Below are positions 1-16,101 of a stretch of 64,000 nt of DNA, in pieces. The notes below the pieces were generated by a model. The model made no database searches. It was given only the letters and a program-made list of their open reading frames with translations, and had not been told where the DNA came from. Source of the stretch: Nocardioides sp. dk884 (lineage in GTDB: Bacteria; Actinomycetota; Actinomycetes; Propionibacteriales; Nocardioidaceae). The stretch's first letter is position 1; each line of letters starts with the position of its first letter. The DNA lies in assembly GCF_009557055.1 (NCBI RefSeq), contig NZ_CP045649.1:1463501-1527500 (forward strand). Reading direction: 5' to 3'. The position numbers and the translations under genes are program-made.

Positions 1-2
1 CG

Positions 3-809
3 CGTCCCGCGATGGTGCTGGGTCTGTCCTCGGTGCCCGGCGCGGGTCAGAACTTCCTCGTCGTCGAGGACGACCGGATGGCGCGCCAGATCGCTGAGAA
101 GCGTGAGGCTCGTGAGCGTGCGGCCATGCAGGCCAAGCGTCGCGTCCGCCGCACCCTCGAGGACTTCATGGCCTCCATGGAGAAGGGCGAGAGCCAGGAG
201 CTCAACCTCATCCTCAAGGGCGACGTGTCCGGTTCGGTCGAGGCCCTCGAGGACTCGCTGTCGCAGATCGACGTCGGCGACGAGGTCACCCTGCGCGTCA
301 TCGACCGCGGTGTCGGTGCGATCACCGAGACCAACGTCGACCTGGCCGCCGCCTCCGACGCCATCATCATCGGCTTCAACGTCCGGCCCCAGGGCAAGGC
401 GACCGAGATGGCGGACAAGGAAGGCGTCGAGATCCGCTACTACTCGGTCATCTACCAGGCGATCGAGGAGATCGAGGCGGCCCTCAAGGGCATGCTCAAG
501 CCGGAGTACGAGGAGAAGACCCTCGGCCAGGCGGAGATCCGCGCGATCTTCCGCTCGTCGAAGATCGGCAACATCGCCGGCTGCATGGTCACCAGTGGCC
601 TGCTGCGCCGCAACGCGAAGGTCCGGGTCATCCGCGACGGCAACGTCATCGCGGACAACCTCGACCTCGCCTCGCTCAAGCGTGAGCGCGACGACGCATC
701 CGAGGTCCGCGAGGGCTTCGAGTGTGGTCTGGTCCTGAAGAACTTCCAGGACATCAAGGAGGGCGACGTCATCGAGGCGTTCGAGATGCGGGAGATTCCC
801 CGCAGCTGA
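3..809 (+). CDS. infB: Translation initiation factor IF-2, C-terminal part (5' truncated by window)
   Basis: IF-2 is the GTPase that brings initiator fMet-tRNA to the 30S subunit. Only the last 269 codons are present; the frame is open to base 3, so the gene starts outside the window. What remains follows the G domain: a charged helical stretch (residues about 25-55), domain III with the [10 protein letters not shown] motif, and the C-terminal fMet-tRNA-binding beta domain ending with [11 protein letters not shown]. The protein is typical for the family and intact in this part. A strong hairpin terminator follows at 820-859, then rbfA, the usual infB-rbfA-truB order. Confidence 0.97.
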
Positions 810-14221: not shown

Positions 14222-14778
14222 TCAGCGCACCAGCACCACGACGGCGGCGCAGGCCCCGGCCCACAGCACGCTCGCGAAGGTGCCGATGATGAACCGCTCC
14301 GCGGCGCCGGTGCGGACGCCGTCCTCCGCCGCGCGCAGCTCGGGGTAGCGCCCGAACGCCTTGACGGCCAGCACCACCGCGATCCCTTCGGGCCAGCCGG
14401 CCACGAGCGAGGCGTAGACCGCCGCCCGCTCGAGCACCCCGATCCAGGTCCCGCCGCGCAGCACCGACCCGGCGCCCTGGGTGGTGGTCGTGGTCCCGTC
14501 GGCCCGCGGGCGGTCCACGAGCGCGAACAGGCGCGCGGTGACCGGCCGCCGCCCAGGACGGCGGCTGCGGCGCCCAGCACGACCAGCAGCGCGGTGGCGG
14601 CGCGAGCGCCGCTGTCGATGTCGGCAGGTGTCGCGGCCACCCCCGCCGCGGCGGCGAGCAGCAGCAGCGTCGCGGGGGTCCACACGTCGCGCCCGGTGCG
14701 GCTCCACGAGCACGCCGCCGCGACGGTGGTGGCGGCGAGCAGCGCGGTGACCAGCTGGCCCCAGTTCTCCGGACTCAT
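14222..14778 (-). pseudogene. DUF3307-like integral membrane protein, frameshifted
   Basis: Two reading frames together make one protein. From ATG 14778 the frame gives MSPENWGQLVTALLAATTVA, then WTPATLLLLAAAAGVAA and ALLVVLGAAAAVLGGG. After about 14545-14556 the matching continuation, PVTARLFALVDRPRADG, is in the next frame. It runs through GGTWIGVLERAAVYASLVAG, VLAVKAFGRYPEL and ERFIIGTFASVLWA to the stop at 14222. The IGxLER, VLAxK and IIGT spacing resembles the C-terminal half of DUF3307 proteins. The span is one base short of a multiple of three, in a GGC run, so a single base was lost or missed in sequencing. The start overlaps the SatD-like gene by 4 bases. Families like this are often next to SatD; function unknown. 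Confidence 0.65.
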
Positions 14779-15383
14779 GGGCCCATCCCAGCACCAGGCA
14801 CCCTCAGCAGGGGAGTGGCGAGGTGGGTGACGAGCTCGCGGGCGCGCCGTCCCTCGGCGAGCCCGGCGGCCTGGGCGCGTTGGCTGACCGCCGACTGGCT
14901 GATGCCCAGGCGGCGCCCGATCTCCTCGTGGGTGAGGCCCTGGTCGGCGAGGTCCACGACGTCCCAGCCCCGCGGCGTACGACGGGCGAGGACGGCCGCC
15001 CACAGCCACAGCGCCGACTCCAGGTGCCGGGCGTCGTCGGTGTCACCGTGCACGCGCAGGTGCCACGGGCTGTTCTTGGCCCGTCCGACCGCTTCGCGGG
15101 CGTGGAGGTACGCCGGGCCCCGGCCGGCGCGCGCGTGGTCGGGCAGCGGCTCCTCGACCGTGCCGGCGCCCAGGCCGATGTGCCAGGTGTCGTCTCGCAG
15201 CAGCGGCTCGAGCACGAGAGCCACGTGCTCGGGGCGGTCCAGGACGCCCTGGACCTCATCGCCGGCCGTGCGCTCGAGGGGCCGCAGGAGAGGCACCCCG
15301 GCGGTGGCCTCCATCGCGCGGGGCACCAGGTCGGCGCCGGCGCGGCTGGAGCGCTGGTCGACGGTGAGCACGAGCACGGGCAC
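14775..15383 (-). CDS. SatD-like protein with C-terminal helix-turn-helix
   Basis: A protein of about 202 aa. Its body resembles SatD proteins: TAGDEVQGVL, WHIGLGAGTVEEPL and GRGPAYLHAREAVGRAK are spaced as in that family. The C-terminus is a clear HTH: DVVDLADQGLTHEEIGRRLG followed by SQSAVSQRAQ. GTG 15383 is preferred because GGAGG lies 5 nt upstream; GTG 15389 overlaps that site. It is co-translated with the DUF3307-like gene. Its promoter contains a perfect palindrome between the -35 and -10 boxes, consistent with autoregulation. Biochemical role is unknown; SatD was named in a streptococcal acid-tolerance operon. Confidence 0.78.
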   Translation of the reverse strand: MPVLVLTVDQRSSRAGADLVPRAMEATAGVPLLRPLERTAGDEVQGVLDRPEHVALVLEPLLRDDTWHIGLGAGTVEEPLPDHARAGRGPAYLHAREAVGRAKNSPWHLRVHGDTDDARHLESALWLWAAVLARRTPRGWDVVDLADQGLTHEEIGRRLGISQSAVSQRAQAAGLAEGRRARELVTHLATPLLRVPGAGMGP

Positions 15384-15415
15384 CGGCACCTCCGGAGTGA
15401 GCGGGTCAGTTCCGA

Positions 15416-15444
15416 GGATGCATCAGGAAATTTCCTAATGTCAA
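15416..15444 (-). promoter_or_regulatory. Promoter with palindromic operator for the SatD-like operon
   Basis: On the minus strand TTGACA (15444-15439, perfect -35) is followed after 18 nt by CATCCT (15420-15415 region). The spacer holds AGGAAATTTCCT at 15425-15436, a perfect 12-bp palindrome, a classic repressor position. Confidence 0.6.
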
Positions 15445-15449
15445 TGCCA

Positions 15450-15469
15450 GATAAGGGGAAAACCTTATC
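15450..15469 (-). terminator. Hairpin at the methyltransferase stop codon
   Basis: GATAAGG (15450-15456) pairs with CCTTATC (15463-15469) around a 6-nt loop. The stem includes the TAA stop (15467-15465) of the methyltransferase gene. No U tract follows on the minus strand. Confidence 0.45.
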
Positions 15470-15980
15470 GACGGCCGATGATGCCGATGACCGCCGGGTT
15501 CTTCTGCTCCACGACCGAGACCCGGAAGCCGCCCTTCGCGAGCGCCGCCGACGCCTTCGACACCACCGTGGGCATCTGGTCGGGGAACTTCACCTCGAAG
15601 AACAAGAAGACAGCACCGCCGGGCAGCACGCGCTCGTGCAGCAGCGCGATCTCGTCGTCGCAGTCACGCACCCAGAACAGGTTGACGTTGAACGCGTAGA
15701 CCTTGTTGAGCCGCTTGACCGGGACCCGCAGCGTGGCCAGGTCGATCTGGCGCACCGTCAGTCGGCCGGCCTCCACGAAGCGCGCACAGCGTCGCTTCGT
15801 GCGGTCCACGCCAGACTCGGACCGGTCGATCGCGAAGAGCTTGCCGGTGGTCAGCCGGGAGCAAATAGCCTCCGCTCCAGCCCCGGGTCCACAACCGATC
15901 TCCAGGACGTGGTCGGTCGGCTGGACATCCATGAACTCAACCGCCCACCGAATCCGCGCAGGGATCGTCTGCACCACCAT
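15465..15980 (-). CDS. Class I SAM-dependent methyltransferase
   Basis: A methyltransferase of 171 aa from ATG 15980 (or 188 aa from TTG 16031). The Rossmann motif I is HVLEIGCGPGAGAEAI, followed by an acidic strand-2 end in LFAIDRSESGVDRTKRR and motif IV-like KVYAFNVNLFW. No substrate domain is recognisable, so the target (small molecule, lipid or protein) cannot be stated. The start is uncertain; neither candidate has a clear ribosome binding site. Local base composition is less GC-rich than in neighbours (TAA stop, AAA and AAT codons), hinting at horizontal acquisition. It lies upstream of the SatD-like operon in the same orientation. Confidence 0.8.
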   Translation of the reverse strand: MVVQTIPARIRWAVEFMDVQPTDHVLEIGCGPGAGAEAICSRLTTGKLFAIDRSESGVDRTKRRCARFVEAGRLTVRQIDLATLRVPVKRLNKVYAFNVNLFWVRDCDDEIALLHERVLPGGAVFLFFEVKFPDQMPTVVSKASAALAKGGFRVSVVEQKNPAVIGIIGRR

Positions 15981-16101
15981 GGGGTCAAGACTGCCAGAAG
16001 CCCAGACCTCGTGGTGCCACCCGGTCCCCAAGGTGCGCTGAGTCTCACACCGATCGGTCTCGCCGGACCCGTCCCGGACCGGTCCTGGGGCCCCGACGTC
16101 C

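Follow-up and report, generated by a model that had tools for sequence, protein, structure and literature searches.

A SatD-like regulator with a predicted cyclase-type fold and its membrane partner: a proposed autoregulated operon in Nocardioides

Results

A proposed two-gene operon with its own operators

The window, that is, the whole stretch of 64,000 nucleotides analyzed here from Nocardioides sp. dk884, carries on its minus strand a SatD-like regulator gene that runs directly into a membrane protein gene. The explanation that we favor, with modest confidence, is a negatively autoregulated two-gene operon, in which a helix-turn-helix (HTH) repressor with a cyclase-type fold sets the dose of the membrane partner. 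According to this model, a SatD dimer would sit on the two operators, O1 and O2, one of which lies between the −35 and −10 elements, and would block its own promoter; the N-terminal palm, of class III cyclase type, would bind a metal-nucleotide or related ligand and thereby modulate repression, similar to the PucR/CdaR regulators, in which a degenerate GGDEF domain is joined to an HTH; and the output under control would be the membrane partner, a multi-pass protein co-transcribed with SatD that would have to be kept at a low dose. We infer repression rather than activation, and likewise dimerization of SatD, a nucleotide as the ligand, and harm from the partner. Computed here were the homology, the fold, the invariant metal-type residues, the layout and rarity of the operators, the conservation of the pair, and a 1-nt deletion in the partner gene. 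The original prediction had proposed an autoregulated membrane response module, and this is well supported by the two-site operator overlapping the promoter and by the conserved partner gene. Features of the locus are listed in Table 1.

Table 1. Features of the SatD locus (positions in the window; residues for protein domains).
Feature	Position	Strand	Sequence or size	Remarks
Membrane partner gene	14222..14778	-	~185 aa	ATGA overlap with SatD; split after codon 77 here
Single-nucleotide deletion site	14545..14546	-		DNA alignment against Nocardioides sp. zg-DK7169; relatives intact
SatD-like regulator	14775..15389	-	204 aa	Basis: Pfam, alignment, AF2, PDB fold and sequence searches, profile comparison with shuffle controls
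SatD-like regulator, N-domain	residues ~1-115			Predicted class III nucleotidyl-cyclase-type palm domain
SatD-like regulator, helix-turn-helix	residues ~137-176			Sigma70-r4/NarL-type HTH
-10-like hexamer	15415..15420	-	CATCCT	TAGNCT in most relatives
Operator O2 (predicted)	15423..15438	-	TTAGGAAATTTCCTGA	Inside 18-nt spacer of SatD promoter
-35-like hexamer	15439..15444	-	TTGACA	Position relative to O2 conserved in relatives
Operator O1 (predicted)	15450..15469	-	GATAAGGTTTTCCCCTTATC	29 bp from O2; holds stop codon of upstream methyltransferase gene
Class I methyltransferase	15465..16031	-		Neighbor, judged outside the module

The regulator is SatD-like

The Pfam SatD profile (PF16264) matched the window protein with an E value of 2.2e-5 and 24.6 bits, which does not reach the curated cut-off of 29 bits, and the SatD family HMM run on the whole source genome missed this very protein. 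Its HTH was recognized as Sigma70_r4 (E 4.1e-7). In a diverse alignment, the N-domain of the window protein was homologous to that of accepted SatD proteins and was likewise followed by the HTH, and all 22 aligned proteins matched Pfam SatD (best E 2.9e-19). Judged by these comparisons, the protein is clearly a SatD homolog although it stays below the Pfam threshold, and its original description as a SatD-like HTH protein was right. Of the SatD and DUF3307 profile matches anticipated for the two proteins, only the former was found, below its cut-off.

Nine residues, D11, S15, G43, D44, E45, Q47, G74, G76, and G91, are invariant across bacteria in the 22-sequence alignment. The metal-type pair D11 and D44 is in addition invariant in 67 close SatD sequences, and the pair is retained from actinobacteria to archaea, while R98 is nearly invariant.

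The N-domain is predicted to have a class III nucleotidyl cyclase fold

An AF2 model of SatD built from 67 sequences had a pLDDT of 96. Among the best 50 rows of a VIA-align search with this model, Z scores were 8.9–10.7 across 102–130 aligned residues, and all hits were class III cyclases but one, GTP cyclohydrolase III, whose fold is the same. Foldseek likewise matched the model to mycobacterial cyclases with a probability of 1.00, and the PucR/CdaR-type regulators 3onq and 9f80 also ranked high, so AF2, Foldseek, and VIA-align all gave the cyclase-type palm. Independently of structure, the SatD sequence profile matched the cyclase domain of Rv1900c among PDB sequences (E 9e-4), and its comparison with a profile of 24 actinobacterial cyclases gave P 3.9e-5; the lowest value from 60 column-shuffled controls was 0.053, and the reversed profile gave 0.1. 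By model and profile together, then, the N-domain is assigned a class III nucleotidyl-cyclase fold. The PDB entries 1ybt and 1ybu bear the molecule name 'hydrolase, lipJ', yet contain the Rv1900c adenylyl cyclase domain, so filtering by name would miss the link between SatD and the cyclases. A PMC literature search found no paper joining SatD with cyclases or GGDEF proteins.

D11 and the GD44 motif align with the metal-binding Asp positions of the cyclases, that is, SatD has both of the metal-binding Asp that mark class III cyclase enzymes. The equivalence of R98 with the cyclase Arg comes from an alignment by eye and is one residue off. SatD has no conserved counterpart of the transition-state Asn; aligned by eye, the GxxVNxAAR motif of the cyclases corresponds to GPAYLHAR, and the cyclase family PF00211 was absent from the hits of the window SatD at E values up to 1. 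Catalysis by SatD is therefore uncertain, although an enzyme may work without this Asn, as Rv1900c is active in the absence of the canonical residue (PMC4886424).

Two rare palindromes overlap the SatD promoter

Upstream of SatD lie two palindromes of the form TWAGG-N6-CCTWA, 29 bp apart. The regulon was checked genome-wide by a search for this pattern, which with at most one mismatch occurs at four places in the 4.28-Mb genome, two of them at SatD, compared with 23 for a reversed-pattern control. Of 52 SatD promoters from Nocardioidaceae, 48 carry at least one site, where shuffled sequences would give 0.36, and in every Nocardioidaceae promoter with two sites (16/16) the spacing is 28–29 bp. 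The 18-nt spacer from the −35-like hexamer to a TAGNCT-type −10 is taken up by the proximal copy in most of the Nocardioides loci that were compared. An operator in the spacer between −35 and −10 is in the classic position for repression. A generic scan of the operator region for sigma-70 promoters and terminators returned nothing; the blank promoter result is due to the divergent −10.

The regulator had originally been credited with one palindromic operator, which holds; there are in fact two, rare genome-wide and conserved in position and spacing at the promoter of the gene itself. Their near uniqueness in the genome indicates an autoregulator dedicated to this locus and not a global regulator, and from their location and rarity SatD is predicted to bind them. 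The methyltransferase gene upstream has its stop codon within O1, and several relatives are alike in this, with GTTAGG or GATAAG after the last codon.

The membrane partner and its interrupted frame

The membrane ORF first listed at 14222–14794 is in the wrong frame: the partner gene starts at 14778, overlaps SatD by the four nucleotides ATGA at 14775–14778, and is broken after codon 77, where one base is missing in comparison with Nocardioides sp. zg-DK7169, the nearest relative of the source genome (single contig, 4.28 Mb). SatD-adjacent partner genes are uninterrupted in the relatives examined, so the deletion is either a private event or an assembly error. Beyond the break, 17 synonymous and 4 non-synonymous differences separate the codons from those of zg-DK7169, so that any loss must be very recent. 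The partner in the source genome is thus recently disrupted, or appears so, with the regulator and operator kept. Programmed frameshifting is unlikely, because the relatives read straight through. For an intact homolog of the partner, AF2 modeled seven confident helices (pLDDT 92), and this model had no significant match in the PDB (best E 0.86).

The partner had been described as a DUF3307-like membrane protein. Pfam DUF3307 (PF11750) was found neither in the window frames, nor in the read-through protein, nor in 16 partner homologs, and a DUF3307 domain in the partner is accordingly rejected. Two haloarchaeal plasmids, however, encode SatD followed by an annotated DUF3307 protein with a 4-nt overlap identical to that of the window pair, and the C-terminal ~75 aa of the partner are homologous to the C-terminal half of this haloarchaeal protein (hhalign P 9.5e-14, 37% identity). 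The module has the motif GxxIGxLER ... K..xR ... AExFxxGT, which the partner carries; DUF3307 proteins found independently of SatD gave no significant match to it. On these alignments, the description is true only of the C-terminal module, one that Pfam does not describe. No paper characterizing SatD/DUF3307 was found in the PMC search.

Conservation and setting of the pair

The predicted tight coupling of the two genes, seen here in the ATGA overlap, was confirmed in related loci, as was the recurrence of the pair as neighbors elsewhere, including the haloarchaeal plasmids: the partner adjoins SatD in 76 of the 77 loci in which the SatD gene could be read, and 67 of these 76 have the 4-nt overlap. 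In 246 genomes of the class, most apparently unpaired cases arose because the first profile had failed to detect divergent SatD proteins; the genuine exceptions were a few orphan SatD genes and three genes for the membrane module that had no SatD. In one actinobacterial family (L185, L186, and L188), the module is found without SatD, as part of a longer protein with a different N-terminal architecture. Two of the orphans have lost metal-site residues, one (L193:2434-3111) with GDE changed to GSA and D11 missing, the other (L194:2011-2664) with D11 changed to N and G43 to E, whereas other orphans keep them; this loss in partnerless proteins is suggestive only. In another genus of the family to which Nocardioides belongs, two different SatD-type proteins (L191:520-2493 and L192:2593-4590) lie close together upstream of an ilvD-like gene; no membrane partner was detected for them.

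In Nocardioides, the pair has a fixed place between an M16 peptidase gene and methyltransferase-dapB, and it is vertically inherited within the genus; in one sample of congeners, about two thirds have no member of the close SatD subfamily. In Marmoricola, the pair adjoins dapB and the methyltransferase is missing there, and in Kribbella, Rhodococcus, and others, the pair lies elsewhere, among unrelated housekeeping genes. In Rhodococcus and on a Tsukamurella plasmid, the pair has a convergent SPFH/Band_7 gene downstream of it (L174:4216-5930, L141:4640-6334, L140:4602-5795), accompanied by an NfeD gene in L174 and L141.

The methyltransferase, which had been placed in the cluster as an AT-richer gene, is real and does have a lower overall GC content (66%), but it is neither foreign nor a member of the module. 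Its third-position GC of 0.87 is host-like and rules out a horizontal origin deduced from low GC. As a third component it is ruled out by its orthologs in all 24 of 24 congeners, those without SatD included, and by Kribbella, Marmoricola, and Rhodococcus, in which it does not accompany the pair.

Discussion

The main alternative to a repressor is a catalytic SatD, which we consider rather unlikely: SatD would be an active nucleotidyl cyclase, or a related enzyme that converts nucleotides, and the partner would be the target of its product, and the HTH would only tie expression to activity, making the genes a second-messenger/effector pair. The invariance of both metal-type Asp from actinobacteria to archaea, the nearly invariant R98, a fold matching active cyclases and GTP cyclohydrolase III, the activity of Rv1900c without the Asn (PMC4886424), and the two partnerless orphans devoid of metal-site residues all point this way. 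However, SatD has no conserved transition-state Asn and no PF00211 match, other orphans retain the metal residues, and a palm fused to an HTH is equally expected for a non-catalytic sensor of the PucR/CdaR kind. An unlikely reading is that SatD acts as in toxin-antitoxin systems, neutralizing the membrane protein directly as an antitoxin and repressing the operon as well. Two overlapping genes with the regulator first, autoregulation, a patchy distribution, the disruption of the partner beside an intact regulator in the source genome, and the 'essential yet accessory' satD of S. pyogenes (PMC11323703) are what such a system would offer, but the pair is stably and syntenically inherited in Nocardioides, is not enriched on plasmids or phages, and has an invariant cyclase-like metal site, needless for an antitoxin.

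That the locus in the source genome is a decaying regulator/transporter remnant with no present function is improbable. The partner ORF is split by the 1-nt deletion and about two thirds of the sampled congeners are without the close subfamily; against this stand the predominantly synonymous differences downstream of the deletion (17 vs. 4) and the preservation of both operators, and the deletion could be an assembly error. An anti-phage or general stress defense system, which had been suggested initially, is very improbable. A cytoplasmic sensor-like protein is coupled to a membrane protein, and streptococcal satD has been linked to acid tolerance (PMC10326533), but PADLOC gave only weak or generic hits in the window and no known defense family, the neighbors are housekeeping genes in all clades examined, the pair is vertically inherited in the genus, viral contigs contained no relatives, and a search with a distant SatD gave no phage hit.

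For the repressor model, harm from an excess of the partner is suggested mainly by S. pyogenes, in which satD is essential in all strains tested, yet is present in 178 of 249 genomes and absent from 29% (PMC11323703), and further by the operon layout. The membrane partner is thus perhaps toxic in excess; the S. pyogenes gene is a distant homolog, and its essentiality could reflect an unrelated function. The few SatD proteins without a detectable partner and the few membrane-module genes without SatD count against the model.

More broadly, SatD might represent a widespread bacterial and archaeal class of proteins in which a cyclase fold is fused to a DNA-binding domain. Such proteins would produce or sense a nucleotide signal and in this way keep in check a membrane protein with which they are obligately paired and which could be lethal; this generalization is possible but doubtful. 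If true, the pair would act as a membrane switch that regulates itself and is gated by a nucleotide, and would differ from the second-messenger and toxin-antitoxin systems known so far. Release of a harmful membrane partner is also a candidate explanation for the essentiality of satD in those S. pyogenes strains that carry the gene, which others do without. For a long time, no function has been attached to the names SatD and DUF3307; the placement among cyclases, the private operator, and the membrane module, which is common to actinobacteria and archaea, make the pair testable.

Comparison with known systems

Class III cyclases (Rv1900c, Ma1120, and OaPAC) resemble SatD in the palm fold, the co-linear order of motifs, and the two metal-type Asp. 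SatD differs from them in having no cyclase Pfam match and no conserved transition-state Asn, in the shorter region from the GxG strand to the next helix, and in its fusion to an HTH. The PucR/CdaR-type regulators (3onq and the Rv2242 fragment 9f80) have, like SatD, a GGDEF/cyclase-like domain followed by an HTH; their GGDEF is degenerate, whereas SatD keeps the metal-type acidic residues, has only ~200 aa, and comes with an operator of its own and with a fixed membrane partner. The DUF2652 nucleotide-cyclase-like proteins are likewise an uncharacterized cyclase-like bacterial family, with the Arg conserved and the Asn lost, but they form a separate family stated to be single-domain save for one protein (PMC4886424).

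Closest in architecture are the SatD/DUF3307 pairs. The SatD family PF16264, named for SatD of the streptococcal sat operon and found with a DUF3307 partner, has the same N-domain motif (D..S, GDExQG, GxG), a C-terminal HTH, and an ATGA-overlapping membrane gene. In contrast, the window SatD falls below the family cut-off, and the window partner lacks the DUF3307 domain and is shorter in its N-terminal helical part. The haloarchaeal SatD/DUF3307 pairs have the same layout as the window pair and share with it a homologous C-terminal membrane module.
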